From a virus, in the IMG/VR virus record IMGVR_UViG_3300037247_000346, positions 1 through 37,616 of that record: a stretch of DNA of 37,616 bases; one strand, 5' to 3'. The notes beneath the pieces were generated by a model. It searched no databases and was not told where the DNA came from. It saw only the letters and a program-made list of their open reading frames with translations. This document shows positions 417 to 37,616 of this stretch, piece after piece. How positions within the stretch are numbered: position 1 is the first letter of the stretch; every line of letters starts with the position of its first letter. The position numbers were made by a program, and so were the translations under genes.

Positions 417-887
417 CTATCTACTAGCACATAAATCTTCCGGAAACGTCAACTCGGCCCCGATCTCTGCCGCGTAATGCTCTATATCGTTAAGGTACTC
501 TTGGCACTGGTCAACGCTAAAATCCGTGGTGCTTGTCAACCTCGATATTTCGCGGGCCAAAGCCTCGGCGTAGCCCTCCATGCCCTGCTTGCGTACCGCC
601 TTGACTGCCACTACCATCTCCGCGTAGTCGGCATCGTCGCGGGTGAAGATAGGCACGGCGAATTTGCGCTTGAGCAGTTCGTGAACTTCATCCTTCAACA
701 GCCCAAGGTGGTTCGCTATCTCGGTGTTCCATAACCACAAAAGTCTATGCTGCCGTGCGCTCCGGCCCCGATTCTCAGTTGAGACAACTACCTCTAAGGA
801 ACCGTGAAGGGTCAAGAGTTCCTTTATCCATGCAAGGCGAGGGGCTATTTCATCCGCATTGCGAATTATGAAGGTTTCTTTTTTCAT
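417..887 (-). CDS. ninB: NinB-like recombination protein
   Basis: This 156-residue protein has the length and pattern of the NinB family (lambda Orf-type recombination mediator). In lambda and relatives this protein binds single-stranded DNA and helps load recombinases. Family-like segments are an N-terminal strand/helix (FIIRNADEI), the central SARQHRLLWLWNTEIANHLG and a C-terminal YLNDIEHYAAEIG. Its start ATGA overlaps the stop of the exonuclease gene, and the ERF gene lies just upstream, so the three form a co-translated homologous recombination cassette. Assignment rests on sequence pattern only. Confidence 0.75.
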   Translation of the reverse strand: MKKETFIIRNADEIAPRLAWIKELLTLHGSLEVVVSTENRGRSARQHRLLWLWNTEIANHLGLLKDEVHELLKRKFAVPIFTRDDADYAEMVVAVKAVRKQGMEGYAEALAREISRLTSTTDFSVDQCQEYLNDIEHYAAEIGAELTFPEDLCASR

Positions 888-6401: not shown

Positions 6402-6914
6402 ATGGATAAGAAAGGCAAAGGCGGACGACCGCGCGAAAAAGTTGCTGACAAAGTAGACTTTATTCAGGTTGAGAAGCTTGCCGGGTTCGGCATGACTGAC
6501 GTTGAGATCGGTTCGATCTTGAACATCACAGACCGTACTCTTAGAAACTACAAGAAAGACCCGCAGTTTCTTTCCGCCCTTAAAGACGGCAAGGCGAAAA
6601 TAAACGCTCGCGTAGTGCAGAGTCTTTACAAGCGCGCAATGGGTTACTCCGTAACCGAAAAGACCTTTGAGCAGATACGCTTCGGCAATGGTACGGCAAC
6701 GAAGAATGTCAAGGTGAAAACGGTCGTCAAGCATATCGAACCGAATCCGACCTGTCTAATCTTTTTCCTCAAGAACCGTATGCCCGAAGTATACCGCGAT
6801 GTTCGAGCGGATGCACCGGGTGACAAGCCTTCGCCGGATCAGGGCGCAAAGCTCGATCAAATCATAGCCGACGCGGAGAGCCGCGTTGAAAGGGCGGGAG
6901 CAATTTGCCATTAA
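6402..6914 (+). CDS. terS: Terminase small subunit
   Basis: Likely recognises phage DNA for packaging and hands it to the large subunit. With the ATG at 6402 it has 170 residues. It opens MDKKGKGGRPREK and has an N-terminal helix-turn-helix (VEKLAGFGMTDVEIGSILN then ITDRTLRNYKKDPQF), followed by a coiled oligomerisation segment and CLIFFLKNRMPEVYRD, a motif common in phage small terminases. A GTG at 6330 is an alternative start, but it abuts its own Shine-Dalgarno-like run. The gene overlaps the portal gene by 10 bases; the large subunit lies 16 kb away. Confidence 0.8.
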   Translation: MDKKGKGGRPREKVADKVDFIQVEKLAGFGMTDVEIGSILNITDRTLRNYKKDPQFLSALKDGKAKINARVVQSLYKRAMGYSVTEKTFEQIRFGNGTATKNVKVKTVVKHIEPNPTCLIFFLKNRMPEVYRDVRADAPGDKPSPDQGAKLDQIIADAESRVERAGAICH

Positions 6915-8509
6915 GCACCGGGCCCCAATACGTTAGGCAGCTTGAAGCGAAGCGCACCGAGCGCGAACCGCTTGAAAGGTTCTGGCGCGATGCGTATGAG
7001 CTAACCTTTCCCATCCGAGGCGAGAAGTTCCAAAGCAAAGGGCTTGACGCAGCCTCTATCCGCTCCGCCGCCGTGGGCGAGCAAAACGAGATATACGATT
7101 CGACTGCAATCATATCGACTAAACTCCTTGTATCCTCGATAATGTCAGGTATGTTCCCGGCGCACGTTCTTTGGCTTGGGCTCGAAGTACGCAATAACGA
7201 GGATAAGGAGATCGAGGAATGGCTTGAGGAAACAGCCACGACGATCTGGAAGAATATACACGCTTCCAATTTTGATGTGGTTGCATTCGAGTCTCTTGTC
7301 GATATGATAGTCTCCGGTATGTTCGGAATGTTCATCACCGAAGGATCAGAGGAAAGCGGACAGCCCTATATGTTCGAGCAATGGCCCCTGCATTCGCTAT
7401 ACTGCGGGGATAGCACCGGTGATGGCCTGATTGATACGGTCTATCGTGAATTCAAGCTTACGGCAGAGCAAGCCATAAACATCTATGGCGAAGGCAAGCT
7501 TCATACCGATATACTTACCGCAGTAAAGAAAAAGCCGAATGAGAAGTTCGACTTCTTGCACGTTATCCACCCGCTACCAGATCATAAGCGTTTACAGCTT
7601 CCGATAGCTTCGGTACATATCAGCCTGAAAGACAAGAAGATTGTCCGGAAAGACAAGGGCTTTCATGAGATGCCGGTCGTCGTCCCGCGTTGGTTCGTAA
7701 TGCCCGATTCGGTCTATGCTACCGGCCCGATAGACGACGCGCTTGCGGATATAAAGACCGTCAACGAGCTTGTGAGGATCATCCTTGCATCGCTCGATCT
7801 GTCTGTCTCTGGTATGTGGGGCGCGGTTGATGATGGGGTGTTGAATCCGAATACGATCAAAGTCGGCCCGCGTAAGGTTATCCCGGTTGCAAACAAGGAC
7901 AGCTTCTTTCCCTTGAGTTCTGGTGTTGACTTCAACGCGGGCGAATTGACCGTGACCAACCTACAGGCGCGGATCAAAGAAGTTCTTATGTCGAATCAGT
8001 TGCAGCCGCAGGACGGCCCGGCAATGACCGCCACCGAAGTCCACGTCAGGACGCAGCTTATCAGGCAGCTACTTGGCCCGCTATATGGTAGGTTACAGGT
8101 TGAGTTTCTACAACAGACGGTAGAGCGTTGTCTCGGAATAGGGCTGAGAGCCGGGGCGTTTAACGAGCTTCCGGAGGGTCTTAAAGGCAAGACAGCGACC
8201 GTCAAGTATCTCTCCCCGCTCGCACAGGCGCAGAAGCTTGAGATCGTCGGCGCAATCGAGAGATTCCAAGCCGGGTTATTCGCACAGGCCGCAGTAAAGC
8301 CGGAAGCCATTGACATCCTCGATCTTGACGAGTCGAACCGCGAAACAGGGGATATGCTTGGTGTGCCTGAAAGACTTATACGGAGCAAGGAGGATGTTGA
8401 GCAGCTACGCACCGACCGGGACGAGGCCGAGGCCGAAGTCCTTAAGAATGCGCAGGATCAGGAGATCAAGAAGGCCGTCGGGCCGAAGCTCGTCGGTGAG
8501 GGGGCTTAA
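6905..8509 (+). CDS. Portal (head-tail connector) protein
   Basis: At 534 residues it matches the T7 gp8-type head-tail connector family in length and order. It opens with RQLEAKRTEREPLERFWRD and contains FVMPDSVYATGPIDDALADI and a late QDGPAMTATEVHVRTQLIRQ segment that corresponds to the conserved clip/wing-core region. It forms the dodecameric ring through which DNA enters. It uses a TTG start with GGGAG upstream and overlaps the terminase small subunit. The C-terminus is a charged helix (EAEAEVLKNAQDQEIKKAVG). Confidence 0.9.
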   Translation: MPLSTGPQYVRQLEAKRTEREPLERFWRDAYELTFPIRGEKFQSKGLDAASIRSAAVGEQNEIYDSTAIISTKLLVSSIMSGMFPAHVLWLGLEVRNNEDKEIEEWLEETATTIWKNIHASNFDVVAFESLVDMIVSGMFGMFITEGSEESGQPYMFEQWPLHSLYCGDSTGDGLIDTVYREFKLTAEQAINIYGEGKLHTDILTAVKKKPNEKFDFLHVIHPLPDHKRLQLPIASVHISLKDKKIVRKDKGFHEMPVVVPRWFVMPDSVYATGPIDDALADIKTVNELVRIILASLDLSVSGMWGAVDDGVLNPNTIKVGPRKVIPVANKDSFFPLSSGVDFNAGELTVTNLQARIKEVLMSNQLQPQDGPAMTATEVHVRTQLIRQLLGPLYGRLQVEFLQQTVERCLGIGLRAGAFNELPEGLKGKTATVKYLSPLAQAQKLEIVGAIERFQAGLFAQAAVKPEAIDILDLDESNRETGDMLGVPERLIRSKEDVEQLRTDRDEAEAEVLKNAQDQEIKKAVGPKLVGEGA

Positions 8510-8527
8510 TTAATAAGGGGGTGGGGA

Positions 8528-8623
8528 ATGTGTAGACTATTTTGTTTTGTTTGGCGGCATTGGTGGTTAGGGGGAACGACTATTCGGCAATGCCGACGCT
8601 GCGGTAAAACCGAAAGATATTGA
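8528..8623 (+). CDS. Zinc-knuckle micro-protein (31 residues)
   Basis: GGGGGTGGGGA directly precedes the ATG. The peptide opens MCRLFCFVWRHWW and ends with a Cys-x2-Cys unit (QCRRCGKTERY). This layout, a Cys/Trp-rich head and a CRRCGK tail, recurs in tiny phage proteins of the DUF1660 type. It lies immediately after the portal and before the iteron array. Confidence 0.6.
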   Translation: MCRLFCFVWRHWWLGGTTIRQCRRCGKTERY

Positions 8624-8633
8624 CACATAGGCA

Positions 8634-8900
8634 GTACCGGCGGATTCTCCTGTAAGTTACGAGTATATATATCTTTATTAAGCAGTACCCTTGCAAGACG
8701 GACAGGCGACGGTACAGGCGGATTGGAAAAAGTAGTACCGGCGAACCCAAAATATGAACTGAAAACGGTACAGGCGGATTGTCTATTAAGTAGTTGTAAC
8801 CCTTAAGGATTCATGGAGCAAGATTTTAAAACAGTACCGGCGACGGTACAAGCGACCCTGAAATACGGTACAAGCGGATTCTGAAAAACGGTACAGTAAC
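8634..8900 (+). repeat. Iteron array, possible second replication origin
   Basis: Copies of a core close to GGTACMRGCGGATT, with M being A or C, occur with their AC dinucleotides at 8636, 8702, 8714, 8737, 8770, 8836, 8848, 8870 and 8893. The steps are 66, 12, 23, 33, 66, 12, 22 and 23 bases, mostly multiples of about 11, as if bound on one face of the helix. The run 66-12-22/23 occurs twice. An AT-rich stretch (GAGTATATATATCTTTATT from 8661) lies in the first long spacer and could unwind. All frames contain stops. The same motif and spacing occur in the replication initiator gene at 35595-35711. The 14-mer ACAGTAACAAGAAG ends both arrays. Confidence 0.75.
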
Positions 8901-18202: not shown

Positions 18203-21200
18203 TTGCCAACAGATATATTCGACATAGTAGCGGCAGAGCCCGCAGGGGATATATTCGATCAGGTTGCCGGTGGTATCACAGCCCCCGCCCTGCCGCCCGC
18301 TCCTGATATGCGTATACCTGCATGGAAAGAAATAAGGGAAGAATTACCGGATAGTCTTTTGAAGAACGAAAAGGCTATTAAAAATTCATTATCGATTGCT
18401 GCCACCCATGACATATCGCCTGACCAAGCACTTGATCTGCGCGAACCTTACGAGGAAGAAGTCAACGAATCTTCTTTGTATGATAAAGCGCAGGGAGCTT
18501 TCAAGGCCGGTATCGGTGACGTGTATAGTACCGCCGGTAATACGATGAGGTGGCTTGGTGCTTCGGATGAATTCACCAGTACATATATCGACTTTGGCGA
18601 ACGGCTTAGAACAGCATATCTCCCGCCAACCGATCAGAGCGAGTTTACATGGCGGAAGTTTGCCGATCCTGAATGGTGGGCGACGACCGGGGCGCGTTCC
18701 GTACCTTTCGTGTTGTCGCTTATTCCGGCGGCGATAGTCGGGGCTTACGCGGGCGCGGCTGCTGCGAGCGGTGCTGCTGTAGTTATAGGATTAGGGGCTT
18801 TCGGTACGACGGTATTAACTACCATCGGCGGGGCAACCGGCGCAGCCTTGTTGGGTAGGCCGGTTGAATCGGCGTTTGAAGCCGGGGCTGTATTTGAAGA
18901 AGCAAAGGCGAGGGGTATGACGGACGCGGAAGCCGATGCTGCTGCTGATAACACATTTTGGGGGAATATGACTTTGACCGGGGTCGATGCCGCCCAATTC
19001 GCTTTAGCGTTTACGCCGTTAAAGATTATGGGGCCGAGCGCAAACGCATCGTTGGCAAGGCGGATACTTGCTACAATCTTTAAGGTTGGGGGTGTGGGTG
19101 TTATCGAGGGCGTGGAAGAACGGATACAAGAATTTATAAGTATAAAGGCTCTTGGGGATGAAGTGGACTTTTTCGACGTGAATGACCCCCGGCTGAATGA
19201 GGCAAGCGCACTCGGTATGATATTCGGTACAGGTTTAGGTGGATCGGGTAGCGTCTATACAGGGTTGACAAAGCGAGTTGTCAATTCTATGCCTGACGAC
19301 GTTAAGGCCGACTTTGAAACAAACAAGGCTGCTGCTGTAACGGATGGCGCAACCGAAGAAGTTGCCGAGCTTAAAGCCCTTGATGCTATATCTGAAACTC
19401 CCGAAGGCAAGGCGCACGTTGAAAACGTCTTAAATAATCTCAAAGAGGGTGTCGATATAGGTAAGCCGGTCGAGGCGGCCCCGGTGGAAGAAGTAGTCGT
19501 ACCGGAAGCTCCGACCGCCGAAGAAGAAATAGTAGCCGCCGATGCTGTAATCGACCTCGTTATTGAGGGTACGGAGTTTGATACCCTGACCGACGAAGAA
19601 GTAGCGGTAGCGATTGGGGCTGTAGAAGCCCCTGTAACCCCCGCAGAGGCCGAAGCCATACCGGAAGTCCTACCGGAGGCCGAACCCCCCGTGCATGGGC
19701 TTGTGGAGGGCGTGGGCGTTGATGTAGACATCTTGAACAAGACCAAAGCCGAGTTACGGGCAGGATTACAGAGCTTTGTCGATGATTTCCAGCAGTTGAG
19801 GAAAACAGGACAGGTCAAGGAAGCTAAACTGGTTAGGGATAATATTCAAAAAATCATAGATGAGAAAGGCCTTGATGCGGATACGGTATTTGGGGTTGCG
19901 CCTGAAATAGTTGAACAGCGGAAAATAATAGCCGAGGCCGAGGCAAGGCAGCGTATCGAGCAGATAGAAAGGCTCAAACCCACCCTTCCCGCCCGGGCTG
20001 TTAAGGGGCAGATTCGACGTGCCACAGGCATTGTGAAGGTCTCAAGGATGATCCGTGAGGATAAAGCACTTGCTGCGGCTTGGAAGAAGGCCGAGCAAAG
20101 CGCAAGGATTGCGTTTAGAGAAGGGAATAGAGAAGGGGTTGCAATCGAGCGCGATAGGCTGAAAGAGATATTCGCCGAAGCGCGCTCGCGTGTTGAGCAG
20201 ACAACAAAGGTTGGTAAGCTTAAGAATTCCATACTTAAAGAGATTAAGACCGCAAAGCCTAAGAAGCGAGCCGGTAAACCGATTGGCAAGTTTACGGCAG
20301 ACGTGCAGAGGATACTTGACAGATTCGGTGAGGCGGTGAAGCTTTCGCAGGAACAGGCCATAGATAAGATTGCCGACAACCTCGATAAGTTTGTTGGTTC
20401 GGAAATGCCGGATTCCGTTATATTGGAAAACCGCGTTCTTGATATGATTGTGCGACTTAGGTATAGGGCCGGGGAGCCGGGCGTGCCTCCGCTAAGAAGG
20501 CGATTTACAGTCGGCGAGCTTGAAACGCTCTTAGAAGGGATTAAGGAGATGAAGGTCGGCGGTAAGGCCATTGCCGAGTTAAAGAAATTGAATCGTAAGG
20601 CCCGCGACCAGAAGCGTGTCGATGATGCAATTAGCGTTATCATGGGCGGTAAGGAGTTCCCGAAGGGGCTAGAAACGACAGGTGTGCGTCCTTCTACGAT
20701 TGCGCCGAAAGACTTTAAGGAATGGCTTAAGAAGTTCACAAGTACCGCCGGAATTCATTTTGTCGGGTGGAACGATTTAATGGATATGCTCTCGGCTAGA
20801 GACAAAACTTCGGAGCCGGGGCAGAGCAAGTTGAATCAGATGGCGGAAGTTCATACGCAAGAAAACATTGAGAAGGGCAACCGGACAAAAGCATCTCAAG
20901 AGATTGCGAGGATTGCGCGAGCGGCTTTTGGTTTTACTTCCGACCGTGAAATGCTTACGCAATTTAATCTTGATGCGAAGGAAATAGAGATCGGGCAATT
21001 CCCTAACGCAAAAGGTACGCTTGTCAATCTTGTTATGACGAAGGCTGAAGCTCGCAAGTTTATCATGGAGTATAGCGATCCGGCTTTGCGCGAAACCTTC
21101 CATGAGGGGATGAATTTTACCGACGATATGATACAGGCGATAAGAGGTGTCTTGACGGCGCAGGACTTAACCTTCATTGAAAGCCAACTTGAATTCTATC

Positions 21201-22696
21201 GACAGTATTATGATCGCGTCAATGCCGTATATCGTGAAGCTTACGGGGTAGATTTGCCTTTTAATCAATTCTATTCTCCGATAAGACGTGAAGGGTTTGT
21301 TGAACCCGAAGGGCTTTATGGGGCGTTCTTGGACGAAATCTCTTATCGTCGTTCGGTGGGGTCTGGTAGCCTCAAGTCGAGGGTAAAGAATCTTCGGCGC
21401 ATATCTTCACAAAGTGATGTGAATGTGCTAGAGCGTCATATTGCGGAAATGGAACACTTCATTGCGTGGAGCGAAAAGGTGCGCGAGCTTAACACGGTTT
21501 TCAAAAACCCCCAAGTGCGCACCGCGATCAACCTGCACCATTCAAAAAATATGTTGGGCGTGATAGATAAATTCATTAATGACTTTACGCGCGGCGGTAT
21601 AGAAACATCGAACCGGCTTAATTGGCTTGATAAGATCAGGGGTAATTTTACGCGCTCTGTTCTTGCTGTAAAACCCACCATGACTATCAAGCAGCTTACG
21701 TCTGTGATGGCTTATATGGAGGTTATGCCTGTAACAGACTTCGTGAAAGGTGTTGCTGATTTTTGGTCTGCACCGCTTGAAAAGGTGAGGTTTCTTAAAA
21801 AGAACAGCGTATGGTTTGCCGAGCGCGGCAAGTTTATGGAGCGTGACGTTAAGACCGCTATGCAGATGAAAGAGTTTAATTCATACCGTAAGACGCGGGG
21901 CTTCTTTGATTCCCTGATGCTCAACGTCACCCTTGGAGATCAGGGGGCTATCGCTATCGGTGGATGGTCGTACTTCCAATACCTGATGAAGAAAAAAGGA
22001 TTATCACAACAAGCGGCTTTGACAGAATTTGAGCGGTTTAGCGAAATGACACAGCAGAGTGCAGACTTTTCTATACAGTCGGATTTTCAGCGTAGAGGAT
22101 CGATTGCAAAACTGTTCTCGATGTTCTTGTCGGCCCCGAACCTGTATATGCGTAAAGAAATGGGGGCAGTAAGAAACCTTTTGGCAGGGCGTGGTTCACC
22201 GCTTGGACACGCCAAGACTATATTTATATACCATGTACTGTTGCCGTCGATTTTTCAGCTTGTCACGGATGCTTTTAATTGGGATAAGGACAATCAGAAA
22301 AGGGCGGTTATTTTGGGGCCGCTTAATGGCCTGTTTATTATAGGCGAAGGGATTGAGTTTGTTGTTAGCAAGGCTCTTGGGGTGCGCGCTTTCGGAACAG
22401 AGGTTGCACCTTACGCGATTGCAAAAGATTTCGGCAAGTTTATCACCGAGGCAATCCGGTTGATTTCCGAGGGTGATTTGACCGATGAAGAATTCTATCG
22501 CGGAACAAGAGGTCTTGCCGGGAGCGTTGGCGCGGTGACAGGGCTACCCTTAAAGCAAGCGGTTGACCTTACAAAAGCAAGTTCGGATTTTGTCGATGGT
22601 GAATACGAGAAAGCCTTTAAGGAGTTTATCGGATATTCGCCTTTCGTGGTTGAGCAGCACGATAAAACAAGGAAAGGGCAGGTTGGCGCACGATGA
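18203..22696 (+). CDS. Large internal virion (ejection) protein, gp16-like
   Basis: With 1497 residues it is the largest gene. A TTG start follows GGAAGGG. Residues 167-218 are hydrophobic and Ala/Gly-rich (VLSLIPAAIVGAYAGAAAAS) and could insert in membrane. Residues ~390-510 are acidic (EEEIVAADAVIDLVIEG). A lysine/glutamate-rich helical middle follows (RKIIAEAEARQRIEQIERL in part), and the C-terminal part FSEMTQQSADFSIQSDFQR is typical of podoviral core proteins. I see no clear transglycosylase motif. By analogy with T7 it spans the envelope and reels in DNA. Confidence 0.75.
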   Translation: MPTDIFDIVAAEPAGDIFDQVAGGITAPALPPAPDMRIPAWKEIREELPDSLLKNEKAIKNSLSIAATHDISPDQALDLREPYEEEVNESSLYDKAQGAFKAGIGDVYSTAGNTMRWLGASDEFTSTYIDFGERLRTAYLPPTDQSEFTWRKFADPEWWATTGARSVPFVLSLIPAAIVGAYAGAAAASGAAVVIGLGAFGTTVLTTIGGATGAALLGRPVESAFEAGAVFEEAKARGMTDAEADAAADNTFWGNMTLTGVDAAQFALAFTPLKIMGPSANASLARRILATIFKVGGVGVIEGVEERIQEFISIKALGDEVDFFDVNDPRLNEASALGMIFGTGLGGSGSVYTGLTKRVVNSMPDDVKADFETNKAAAVTDGATEEVAELKALDAISETPEGKAHVENVLNNLKEGVDIGKPVEAAPVEEVVVPEAPTAEEEIVAADAVIDLVIEGTEFDTLTDEEVAVAIGAVEAPVTPAEAEAIPEVLPEAEPPVHGLVEGVGVDVDILNKTKAELRAGLQSFVDDFQQLRKTGQVKEAKLVRDNIQKIIDEKGLDADTVFGVAPEIVEQRKIIAEAEARQRIEQIERLKPTLPARAVKGQIRRATGIVKVSRMIREDKALAAAWKKAEQSARIAFREGNREGVAIERDRLKEIFAEARSRVEQTTKVGKLKNSILKEIKTAKPKKRAGKPIGKFTADVQRILDRFGEAVKLSQEQAIDKIADNLDKFVGSEMPDSVILENRVLDMIVRLRYRAGEPGVPPLRRRFTVGELETLLEGIKEMKVGGKAIAELKKLNRKARDQKRVDDAISVIMGGKEFPKGLETTGVRPSTIAPKDFKEWLKKFTSTAGIHFVGWNDLMDMLSARDKTSEPGQSKLNQMAEVHTQENIEKGNRTKASQEIARIARAAFGFTSDREMLTQFNLDAKEIEIGQFPNAKGTLVNLVMTKAEARKFIMEYSDPALRETFHEGMNFTDDMIQAIRGVLTAQDLTFIESQLEFYRQYYDRVNAVYREAYGVDLPFNQFYSPIRREGFVEPEGLYGAFLDEISYRRSVGSGSLKSRVKNLRRISSQSDVNVLERHIAEMEHFIAWSEKVRELNTVFKNPQVRTAINLHHSKNMLGVIDKFINDFTRGGIETSNRLNWLDKIRGNFTRSVLAVKPTMTIKQLTSVMAYMEVMPVTDFVKGVADFWSAPLEKVRFLKKNSVWFAERGKFMERDVKTAMQMKEFNSYRKTRGFFDSLMLNVTLGDQGAIAIGGWSYFQYLMKKKGLSQQAALTEFERFSEMTQQSADFSIQSDFQRRGSIAKLFSMFLSAPNLYMRKEMGAVRNLLAGRGSPLGHAKTIFIYHVLLPSIFQLVTDAFNWDKDNQKRAVILGPLNGLFIIGEGIEFVVSKALGVRAFGTEVAPYAIAKDFGKFITEAIRLISEGDLTDEEFYRGTRGLAGSVGAVTGLPLKQAVDLTKASSDFVDGEYEKAFKEFIGYSPFVVEQHDKTRKGQVGAR

Positions 22697-31925: not shown

Positions 31926-32294
31926 ATGGCGCGAATAACTACTCTAGGCGTTTTTGGTATTCCGGGGCCAGTACAGACCTTTGTACCGAAAACCCCCGGC
32001 GTTCCCGGTGGGCCACATAATCCGGGCCACATAACAGCCCTTACAGTCTACGGCGTACCCGGACGACTTCAAACCTTCACGCCCAAAGCTCCGGGTGTCC
32101 CCGGTGTACCGGGTGGCCCCCACAACCCCGGACATATTACCGGTCTTACAGTTTATGGCATACCGGGCGGGTTACAGGTCTTTGTGGCTAAGAGCGCGGC
32201 CCCGTTACCTCCGCCTGTCCGCCGTCAGTTCTTCCAGATAGAGGGATCGAGCAAGACGAAGTACCGGAGATACTTTATCGTCGAGGAAGATTAA
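31926..32294 (+). CDS. Gly/Pro-repeat structural protein (122 residues)
   Basis: Three near-repeats of about 35 residues: ITTLGVFGIPGPVQTF, ITALTVYGVPGRLQTF and ITGLTVYGIPGGLQVF, linked by Pro/Gly-rich PKTPGVPGGPHNPGH strings. The tail is basic (GSSKTKYRRYFIVEED). The repeats suggest stacked beta strands with collagen-like linkers, fitting a fibre or head surface protein. It is the last gene of the rightward unit. Confidence 0.65.
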   Translation: MARITTLGVFGIPGPVQTFVPKTPGVPGGPHNPGHITALTVYGVPGRLQTFTPKAPGVPGVPGGPHNPGHITGLTVYGIPGGLQVFVAKSAAPLPPPVRRQFFQIEGSSKTKYRRYFIVEED

Positions 32295-33568: not shown

Positions 33569-34042
33569 TTATTCCAGGTTGAGCCGTGCAAACTCCCCAA
33601 ATAATTCTTTAGCTTTAGCATCATAGGCTTTTGCGGCCTCTATCTCTGTTTCAAAAACACCAAGATAAACTTTTTTCCTATGGTTGACAAGACAAGCTCG
33701 CCATTTATTCCTGTTCTGAGTTACACCTTTATATTTTGACACGCCCCTTATTTTATGTCTATTCATGTTGTTTTGAGAGCTTGTTGCGGCTCTCAAATTG
33801 CATCGTCTATTATCAAGACCGTTGCCGTTACGATGGTCTGTATCCTGTCCTATTCCCGCATCTATAATTAATCTATGCATCACTATATTCTCATACCCAC
33901 TATTAGTGTGCCATTGCCTTCTTTTAGCATAAAAAGTACCAGAAGGTCTTTTGGCGGCACACCATTTCCATTGATTTAGCCACTCAAAATCCTCATCATC
34001 AACTAGGGCAAATTGTCCTTGTGTAAGCAGTATCTTTTTCAT
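33569..34042 (-). CDS. HNH endonuclease with AP2 DNA-binding domain
   Basis: 157 residues with the start at 34042 after GGGGGTTGTT. The HNH motif is at residues 69-84 (DHRNGNGLDNRRCNLR). The AP2 domain is at ~102-156 (SKYKGVTQNRNKWRACLVNH, then YLGVFETEIEAAKAYDAKA). This is the layout of free-standing homing endonucleases. The ATG at 34174 would extend through a 69-nt hairpin and is rejected. Confidence 0.9.
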   Translation of the reverse strand: MKKILLTQGQFALVDDEDFEWLNQWKWCAAKRPSGTFYAKRRQWHTNSGYENIVMHRLIIDAGIGQDTDHRNGNGLDNRRCNLRAATSSQNNMNRHKIRGVSKYKGVTQNRNKWRACLVNHRKKVYLGVFETEIEAAKAYDAKAKELFGEFARLNLE

Positions 34043-34052
34043 AACAACCCCC

Positions 34053-34121
34053 ACAAACAAAGAACCCCCACAAGGCTGACAACCGTTGGGCGGTGTCCAC
34101 CTTATGAGGGTTCCTGTTTGT
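34053..34121 (-). promoter_or_regulatory. Long hairpin before the HNH-AP2 gene
   Basis: Read leftward, arms ACAAACAGGAACCC and GGGTTCTTTGTTTGT close the structure. Inside are CATAAGG/CCTTGTG and then GACACCG/CGGTTGTC around the loop CCCAA, all centred on 34087. It ends exactly at the ribosome site. In T4, homing endonuclease genes such as I-TevI are silenced by stem-loops over the ribosome site; this may act likewise or as an attenuator. Confidence 0.65.
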
Positions 34122-34178
34122 ACTTCCCGAAGGAAGATTATATGTTTTAGAAGTTGCCACTTAACACCGCCCATATAT

Positions 34179-35174: not shown

Positions 35175-35987
35175 CTAATTATAAAAGATCGCTTCGCAGT
35201 ATAGGCAGCGTTGCGCTTTAGTCCCTGTTGTTTTGTTCGTTACCTCTTTTACGTCTGGATGCTTCCAACCCTTTTCATCTTTCGGGGCCGGGCTCTTGGC
35301 GGTGCAGATTTTAAATTCATCGATGCCCGGTTCGTTCCAATTTACCCAATCAGGCCAGTTGTTAAACCATGTCGATCCGTTCTTGGGCTTCTTCCATGTC
35401 TCGACTTGAAGGTGTTTAAGGTAATTGTCGAGAGCCTTGTTGATCTTTTTCCAATCTTCGTTGGTCTTAACGGTTGCCTTAAAGTGGCGTTCGGCGTTTT
35501 TCTTGCCGTCTTTGAGAGGGTATCTTTTCCATAACGAATCAAAATCGAAGTCGTTATTCTTTACCTTCTTTTCTTTCTTATCCTTCTTGTTACTGTCCCG
35601 TTGCCTGTCCGCCGCCTGTCCGCCGCCGGTATCGTCGCCTGTACCGTTGCCCTGATATTGCTCGTAATTTATTATTGTAATTACACACTTTAGCCGATTA
35701 TCCGCCTGTACTACTCTCTGCTCGATTTGTTCCTCTTTTTTCAGGAGTTCGAGGAATCGTCTTACCTTTCCCCTCGACCACTTCCACCGCCGAGCAAGCC
35801 TTTTCTCTGACCAACCGACCTCGCCGCGATCAACCTTGACATACATACCCTGCAAGATAAACCCGCCGGGCTTGTAATTGGCAAGGAGCAATAGATCAAT
35901 CCATGCACGGCTTCTGTCGAAGGGCTCCGCTTGCCATAGTTCGTTATCTTGGATGCAGCGAAAGAGCTTTATGTAACCCTGCTCCAT
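35175..35987 (-). CDS. Winged-helix replication initiator (lambda O-type layout)
   Basis: 270 residues, AAAGGAAT before the ATG. Residues 1-110 form the phage replication winged helix (GYIKLFRCIQDNELWQ, RGEVGWSEKRLARRWKWSRG, KVRRFLELLKKEEQIEQRV) that ends in VITIINYEQYQ. A Gly/Asp/Lys-rich linker (residues ~114-145) is encoded by iterons. The C-terminal part (FDSLWKRYPLKDGKKNAERH and WFNNWPDWVNWNEPG) is the usual helical region, and a CLYCEA pair lies at the end. By analogy with lambda O it binds its own gene's iterons and recruits the host helicase. No helicase or polymerase is encoded here. Confidence 0.85.
   Translation of the reverse strand: MEQGYIKLFRCIQDNELWQAEPFDRSRAWIDLLLLANYKPGGFILQGMYVKVDRGEVGWSEKRLARRWKWSRGKVRRFLELLKKEEQIEQRVVQADNRLKCVITIINYEQYQGNGTGDDTGGGQAADRQRDSNKKDKKEKKVKNNDFDFDSLWKRYPLKDGKKNAERHFKATVKTNEDWKKINKALDNYLKHLQVETWKKPKNGSTWFNNWPDWVNWNEPGIDEFKICTAKSPAPKDEKGWKHPDVKEVTNKTTGTKAQRCLYCEAIFYN
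35595..35711 (-). repeat. Iterons inside the replication gene (probable origin)
   Basis: On the minus strand the motif occurs as GTACAGGCGGAT, GGTACAGGCGAC, GATACCGGCGGC, GGACAGGCGGC, GGACAGGCAAC and GGACAGTAAC. The AC dinucleotides are 67, 12, 11, 11 and 12 bases apart, not multiples of three, so the periodicity is a DNA signal rather than a peptide repeat. The array is adjacent to an AT-rich part (ATTACAATAATAAATTACGA). The motif and spacing match the intergenic array at 8634-8900. Confidence 0.75.
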
Positions 35988-36584: not shown

Positions 36585-37445
36585 TTAGGCCGCACACCTT
36601 TTCTTATAATCTTCCCACGTAACGCTTTTAAAGATCGCCTTGTGGTTCACATATCTTGCAAACATTTGCTGATAGGAGTCATGCTTATCGTAAGGCATTA
36701 CAAAGGGGTCTATCTTCATCTCTCGGAGGGTTTCAGCCCGGTAAACATCTTCTTTCTCGCTTGTGTCATAGCCGATAAGGATGTAACAGGCTATCTTCTT
36801 TGGTTTGAGGCCGTACTTTATAGCGAGTTCCAACCCGGCTAAGACCTTCGAGCTATCCTTCATCTGATCCCACGCGAAGTGAAATTGACCGTCCTTGTCG
36901 AGTCGGGTTCTTGCCAACGCTCTTGCCTTTTCTTCGTCGAGCAAACGCGCGTCATAGCCACTATGATCTTTTACTATAAGATCAGCTTCCCATATCTCCT
37001 TGAAAGTTTCTCTCCATAGGGAATCTTCAAAGGTGTTGTTGTTGAGCAAGGCTATTTTCTTAAATCGGGGATCGTGGAACGTCCAGATCGAGCGATGGTC
37101 TGTCGGCTCGTTCATATCCTTAACCTTGCAGAACGAGCATCCCCGGTGACAGGCCCGATAGGTATAGCCGAGCGAGTAGTCTATATCAGGGTAGAGTGTA
37201 TAATCGGGCTTACAAGCCTCTATATCGTCCGACAACCGTACCGAAGGGTCTATCCCCGGCCCGCCCAGCACGTCCGCAATCGGAGCATGAGTCCATTCAA
37301 AGAGGATCGAGGCGTAAGTCTTGTCGGCGGGCATAAGCGGAATATTCAATGTGACTTCGTCCCCCTGTTGCTTGTGGAAAGTCGATAATTTCATAGCCGC
37401 CAAGTTCGGCATCTTGGAGTCCGGCGTTAAAATGTTAATTCTCAT
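36585..37445 (-). CDS. Radical SAM enzyme
   Basis: 286 residues. C99-x3-C103-x2-C106 (YRACHRGCSFCKVKD) is the 4Fe-4S/SAM motif. The N-terminal ~90 residues resemble a B12-binding-like or preceding Rossmann domain (MRINILTPDSKMPNLAAMKL start, then LGGPGIDPSVRL). Barrel segments include KIALLNNNTFEDSLWRETFK and KIACYILIGYDTSEKEDVYR. Substrate unknown: RNA or DNA base modification and B12-type methyl or thiol transfer are possible. It is an uncommon gene in a podovirus replication arm. Confidence 0.8.
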   Translation of the reverse strand: MRINILTPDSKMPNLAAMKLSTFHKQQGDEVTLNIPLMPADKTYASILFEWTHAPIADVLGGPGIDPSVRLSDDIEACKPDYTLYPDIDYSLGYTYRACHRGCSFCKVKDMNEPTDHRSIWTFHDPRFKKIALLNNNTFEDSLWRETFKEIWEADLIVKDHSGYDARLLDEEKARALARTRLDKDGQFHFAWDQMKDSSKVLAGLELAIKYGLKPKKIACYILIGYDTSEKEDVYRAETLREMKIDPFVMPYDKHDSYQQMFARYVNHKAIFKSVTWEDYKKRCAA

Positions 37446-37579
37446 TCTTCATTCCCCGGTCGGTTCCCACCCACCTGCTCAATTTCAACAGATTCAACAT
37501 CGAGAGTTCCAAACCAACACGCTCGCTTAACGGCTGTGTCCTCTGGCTCATAGGATTTAAAGAGGTCTGCCAAGGTCAC
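37442..37579 (-). CDS. Small acidic protein upstream of radical SAM (45 residues)
   Basis: GTG start with GATGAGG upstream; the stop overlaps the radical SAM start (ATGA). Its own start overlaps the end of the gene cut by the window edge (GTGA). It reads VTLADLFKSYEPEDTAVKRA and ends GGNRPGNEE. No family is recognised. Confidence 0.6.
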   Translation of the reverse strand: MTLADLFKSYEPEDTAVKRACWFGTLDVESVEIEQVGGNRPGNEE

Positions 37580-37616
37580 TTTGGAAGCCTCATCCGATTT
37601 ATTATCTTCTTGACCT
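37576..37616 (-). CDS. C-terminal end of the gene that starts at 280 (wrap-around part)
   Basis: Read leftward from 37616, the frame continues the gene interrupted at base 1 (KIINRMRLPK then TGA). The stop overlaps the GTG of the next gene. The fit in frame and the coupled overlap are the main evidence that the two window ends are adjacent. Confidence 0.65.
   Translation of the reverse strand, partial: VKKIINRMRLPK

Follow-up and report, generated by a model that had tools for sequence, protein, structure and literature searches.

Which substrate a viral radical SAM protein acts on is the question raised by the gene at one end of a 37,616-nucleotide viral contig (IMG/VR record IMGVR_UViG_3300037247_000346), which is called the window here. 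The window protein is a divergent member of a known, widespread phage family; what is new here is the adjacency of that family to DNA methyltransferase and PAPS-reductase-like genes.

Sequence features and predicted structure of the radical SAM protein

The gene and two parts of its product were delimited as follows.
36585 to 37445, minus strand: radical SAM protein gene, PHROG 9298 family (ORF, profile, AlphaFold2, selection)
37128 to 37151, minus strand: CxxxCxxC motif C99/C103/C106, putative [4Fe-4S] site (sequence and aligned relatives)
37170 to 37445, minus strand: N-terminal Rossmann-like domain, approximately residues 1-92 (secondary structure, Foldseek, Pfam scan, and column scan)

The reading frame starts with ATG and encodes 286 amino acids without internal stops or a frameshift. 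Residues 1-283 of the protein matched positions 1-294 of the 305 positions in profile phrog_9298 ("radical SAM domain protein") with an E-value of 7.5e-56. The cluster motif is spelled C99-HRG-C103-SF-C106 (C99-x3-C103-x2-C106), and its three cysteines were unchanged across 85/85 aligned relatives. The Pfam Radical_SAM model matched the window protein weakly, at the motif and under the cut-off (E 0.013), and matched 80 of the 85 relatives at E-values up to 0.1. Residues R167, D193, R236, and N267 were kept in at least 84 of the 85 members, window protein included. Comparison with the nearest relative, L013 (IMGVR_UViG_3300037587_000213, gene at 8001-8834; 70% identity; one locus with L002), gave a dN of 0.24 with saturated dS, showing that the frame is under purifying selection and is a selected gene rather than a chance ORF.

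The AlphaFold2 model, for which the 85-sequence alignment of related loci served as input, reached a mean pLDDT of 94.6 and a pTM of 0.89. It predicted a small N-terminal Rossmann-like domain with few helices, with the radical SAM barrel after it and a short helical segment at the end. The window gene encodes a genuine, well-predicted radical SAM enzyme. The first-pass annotation had described a full-length radical SAM protein with an intact CxxxCxxC motif and had proposed structure prediction of a partial TIM barrel around it; sequence, profile, and predicted fold agree with that description, and radical SAM folds led the search of solved structures.

The top solved-structure match in Foldseek was the tRNA methylthiotransferase MtaB, aligned over both domains (TM-score 0.62 by query length, rmsd 8.3 Å, E 4e-5, the E-values of all these fold and profile comparisons being from single comparisons and to be taken as a ranking). 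Core-only matches followed, for example lipoyl synthase. Profile-profile alignment with hhalign covered approximately 155-160 core columns both with MtaB and with one B12-binding radical SAM family, and only 13 columns with QueE, where the reference comprised just two QueE-type sequences. Among the enzymes that had been put forward for comparison, MiaB-like proteins thus came closest in fold and profile, with B12-radical SAM enzymes equally near in the core, and QueE dropped out. The earlier idea of a B12-domain-like N-terminus held in part: the domain resembles the Rossmann-type N-domain of methylthiotransferases and B12-radical SAM proteins and was aligned with that of MtaB by Foldseek, but B12 itself found no support, as the B12-binding model PF02310 gave a single weak match among the 85 members (E 0.0047, Pfam scan); the fold by itself would still permit B12 binding.

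The MtaB match over both domains, the presence of Megaviridae MtaB among the top viral fold matches, the core profile match to MtaB, and the weak matches of MiaB/RimO profiles to as many as 37 of the 85 members all speak for RNA as the substrate. On this alternative, a shortened enzyme of the MtaB/MiaB type would modify host or phage RNA, most likely tRNA, and thereby tune translation or shield tRNAs from nucleases. We consider it unlikely, although worth weighing: the RNA-binding TRAM domain is missing (no match in the Pfam scan; the protein stops after the barrel at residue 286), as are the second-cluster cysteines of the N-domain (no conserved Cys, and Cys exceeding 20% in none of the N-domain columns, in the column scan of aligned relatives), and the neighboring genes code for DNA enzymes instead of tRNAs or tRNA enzymes.

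A divergent pair within the family

In the tree, the window protein and L013 grouped together with full support, on a long stem. This pair shared a changed residue in 11 of the 57 columns that are at least 85% conserved among the other 83 aligned members, most visibly in the loop after the cysteines:
37107 to 37115, minus strand: residues 111-113, M-N-E where the other 83/83 aligned members have K-E-G (alignment)

The KEG motif, which followed the cysteines in 159 of the 169 collected members, is a trend of the family observed in this analysis rather than a published criterion; its absence therefore does not settle whether a protein belongs to PHROG 9298. Further changes common to the pair were G98A, D135N, A140E, and Q162S. 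A few relatives without KEG, from Lachnospiraceae and their phages, were placed elsewhere in the tree.

One explanation of these changes is that the window copy is degenerate, with catalysis lost or altered; the replacement of the KEG loop and of other conserved positions, the 11 substitutions in common with L013, and the long stem could be read in this way. However, the cluster cysteines and R167, D193, R236, and N267 are all retained, the dN and dS values indicate strong purifying selection after the split from L013, and the frame carries neither a frameshift nor a stop, which makes degeneration very improbable. Because selection is intact, the altered residues would fit a switch of substrate or partner better than decay, as far as the sequences can tell. 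A more far-reaching proposal is that PHROG 9298 constitutes a new class of phage radical SAM DNA-base modifiers, in which the window clade, whose loop after the cysteines is rewritten, would carry out another modification and do so without a methyltransferase partner; we regard this combination as improbable.

Gene setting in the window

Three further features place the gene among its neighbors.
37442 to 37616, minus strand: upstream ORF, truncated at the contig end; its TGA stop and the ATG of the radical SAM gene overlap (ATGA)
35175 to 35987, minus strand: DnaD-like helicase loader of the same-strand cluster, downstream of the radical SAM gene (phrog_2514, E 3.4e-24)
417 to 887, minus strand: NinB/Orf recombination mediator (phrog_72, E 7e-21; synteny with L013)

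The overlap of the upstream stop with the radical SAM start makes translational coupling of both genes probable. The block directly downstream consisted of one uncharacterized gene and the DnaD-like loader, and the genes for Erf, a YqaJ exonuclease, and NinB were found on the same strand at the opposite end of the contig. The assignment to the replication arm in the first-pass annotation was thereby confirmed, and its designation of the virus as a podovirus is consistent with the PF12236 head-tail connecting protein encoded at 6905-8509.

Terminal repeats were looked for in the contig and not found. Minus-strand frames overran both contig ends (1-382 and 37442-37616) and could be joined without conflict, and in L013, too, the radical SAM gene has NinB on its upstream side and a DnaD-like gene on its downstream side. 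The joinable end frames and the common NinB-to-DnaD order together suggest that the genome is near-complete and circularly permuted. In that case, NinB probably lies upstream of the window gene as well, which suggests that the radical SAM gene sits between recombination and replication genes. The NinB and DnaD-like neighbors of the window and L013 were only about 30% identical, compared with 70% for the radical SAM protein; this difference points either to strong constraint or to exchange of the gene, which may have passed between phages.

Three other genes of the window were recorded. A protein with HNH and AP2 domains, of homing-endonuclease type, is encoded among the early genes (33569-34174); a short protein with repeated units of the GVPG/HNPGHIT type lies just past the tail-region genes (31926-32294); and a 1497-amino acid protein of the structural arm (18203-22696) had only a partial match to a PHROG without an assigned function.

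Distribution of the family

The family is already catalogued and occurs commonly in phages and prophages whose hosts are gut bacteria and other, mostly anaerobic, bacteria. It occurred in 15 named phage records, including Bacteroides phages and viruses of Methanomassiliicoccales, in at least 417 confirmed relatives in an IMG/VR scan, and at 171 loci in GTDB genomes, many of them in Clostridia and Bacteroidales and many apparently in prophages. These counts contradict the earlier view that such a protein is rare in a virus of this kind. A match at an E-value of up to 1e-20 was present in 24 of 291 sampled genomes from the class of a Lachnospiraceae genome, although the weakest of these may be matches to other radical SAM proteins. 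Two viral contigs, L003 and L004, which besides L002/L013 were the nearest loci of the first search, had the family gene disrupted (one by a frameshift, the other by an internal deletion) and were left out for this reason. Literature searches for PHROG 9298 found no characterized member.

Recurrent adjacency to DNA-modification genes

Among 149 dereplicated loci, the commonest neighbors were C5 DNA methyltransferases (34), N4/N6 DNA methyltransferases (27), and PAPS-reductase-like proteins (23), all encoded on the strand of the radical SAM gene. Since modification genes are common cargo, two control anchors from the same collection were used, RusA and, as an accessory-gene control, YopX; these were chosen because the SSB and PAPS-reductase alignments had no stretch conserved enough for anchoring. 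In 15 of 67 viral loci (22%), a methyltransferase or PAPS-reductase-like gene was the direct neighbor of the radical SAM gene; the corresponding numbers were 2 of 67 around RusA (3%; Fisher p 0.0012) and 4 of 74 around YopX (5%; p 0.005). These figures come from partly non-independent loci, genes called by a simple ORF method, and two controls. Within seven genes, modification genes were about equally frequent, with 23 occurrences near RusA and 25 near YopX. The small difference over this wider interval indicates that adjacency itself is the signal. On the tree, adjacency changed state at least 24 times for 29 loci, so that it was gained or lost repeatedly and is not a single inherited arrangement.

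In L013, an N4/N6 DNA methyltransferase gene lies just upstream of the radical SAM gene. The window has no C5 or N4/N6 methyltransferase or PAPS reductase gene, as is the case for many other members, and a search over whole viral records found no obligatory partner (C5 9/20, N4/N6 11/19, PAPS reductase 2/19). A functional link between the family and DNA-modification genes is nevertheless plausible.

The adjacency could also reflect a mere cargo hot spot of phage early regions that is uninformative on function. This explanation, which competes with the argument for DNA and not directly with the other candidate substrates, appears quite possible, though we do not hold it to be probable: modification genes are common accessory cargo near the controls, too, as the occurrences within seven genes show, but neither RusA nor YopX had an enrichment at positions -1 and +1.

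As a separate observation, a second radical SAM-like protein with TKIDWADSTWNPVTGCYHNCEYCYA is encoded at L078:10168-10965, and such a protein was found within seven genes of the radical SAM gene in six loci; it resembles phage Gp37/Gp68 proteins.

The lack of an obligatory DNA-modifying partner also speaks for the reading in which the enzyme serves auxiliary metabolism and acts on a small molecule, a cofactor, or a host peptide or protein rather than on nucleic acid. Such substrates are typical of much of the radical SAM superfamily, and a B12-binding radical SAM family matches the core of the window protein as well as MtaB does. The neighbor clusters contained no recurring pathway genes or precursor peptide, however, and the wide range of hosts, from Clostridia to Bacteroidota and including those of archaeal viruses, speaks against a special host metabolite; we rate this reading as rather doubtful.

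A proposed role in DNA modification

The explanation that we prefer, while placing it short of an even chance, is that of a catalytically competent, stand-alone phage radical SAM enzyme acting on a base of phage (or host) DNA, with a protective effect. The protein would probably be made early, alongside recombination and replication proteins. Judging from the superfamily, its three cysteines would hold a [4Fe-4S] cluster, and S-adenosylmethionine would be cleaved inside the partial barrel to a 5'-deoxyadenosyl radical, which would abstract a hydrogen from the substrate, positioned between barrel and Rossmann-like N-domain. This substrate would most likely be a DNA base, so that nucleases or other DNA-recognizing factors would cease to act on the modified DNA; the protective role is proposed by analogy.

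A nucleic acid substrate is proposed from the gene neighborhood, with DNA more likely than tRNA. Of the targets suggested in the first-pass annotation (phage DNA, host tRNA, or a host metabolite, modified to counter defense), DNA is favored because of the recurrent adjacency to DNA methyltransferase genes. Fold and motif, the family match, the conserved residues, the methyltransferase beside the L013 gene, and a precedent in Thermus phages (PMC11437467) point in the same direction. Against DNA modification stand the absence of a recognized DNA-binding domain in the protein, the lack of an obligatory partner, and the tRNA-modifying activity of the enzyme with the nearest fold. In addition, the window protein differs from other members at positions that are usually invariant, and the family function may therefore not carry over to it.

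The family is large and is encoded in the early regions of phages whose hosts are mostly anaerobic bacteria, with some archaea. Should it modify DNA, radical chemistry would join the ways in which phages disguise their genomes. The methyltransferase adjacency leads to a specific hypothesis on the substrate that can be tested, and the role of the KEG loop could be probed with the window clade as a natural variant.

Comparison with known systems

Methylthiotransferases require three further cysteines in the N-domain plus a TRAM domain. The MtaB/MiaB/RimO enzymes (TIGR00089 and TIGR01579) have the closest solved fold across N-domain and barrel and a similar radical SAM core, whereas the window protein is approximately 150 residues shorter and has neither the second-cluster cysteines nor TRAM, which rules out membership. 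The B12-binding radical SAM enzymes (TIGR03960, TIGR04013, and TIGR04072 type) also carry a Rossmann-like domain ahead of the barrel, and their core profile match is as good as that of MtaB; in contrast, the N-domain of the window protein is short, with few helices, and lacks a real B12-binding Pfam match.

QueE (7-carboxy-7-deazaguanine synthase), phage versions of which function in DNA modification, belongs to the same radical SAM superfamily. Its match to the window protein is limited to 13 residues around the cysteines, and no QueE model in NCBIfam matched the protein; the 13-column hhalign match, against the two QueE-type reference sequences, rules out membership. No PADLOC model, prokaryotic viperins included, matched the window protein, and one weak PifA match was seen in the family, so that no known anti-phage defense family fits and no link to defense emerged.

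In the Thermus phages Cumys and phiMa, a radical SAM module has been proposed, from its neighboring genes, to carry out an unknown DNA modification (PMC11437467). That module is tied to a DUF483 gene (PMC11437467), and a sequence search with the window protein found no Thermus phage.

The closest system is PHROG 9298 itself (Bacteroides phages BKO1-TP3 and LoVEphage, and Methanomassiliicoccales virus vir215), with a whole-length match and the same cluster motif, length, and layout. Its members often have the same early-gene setting as the window. KEG, D135, and Q162, present in nearly all other members, are absent from the window protein and L013.
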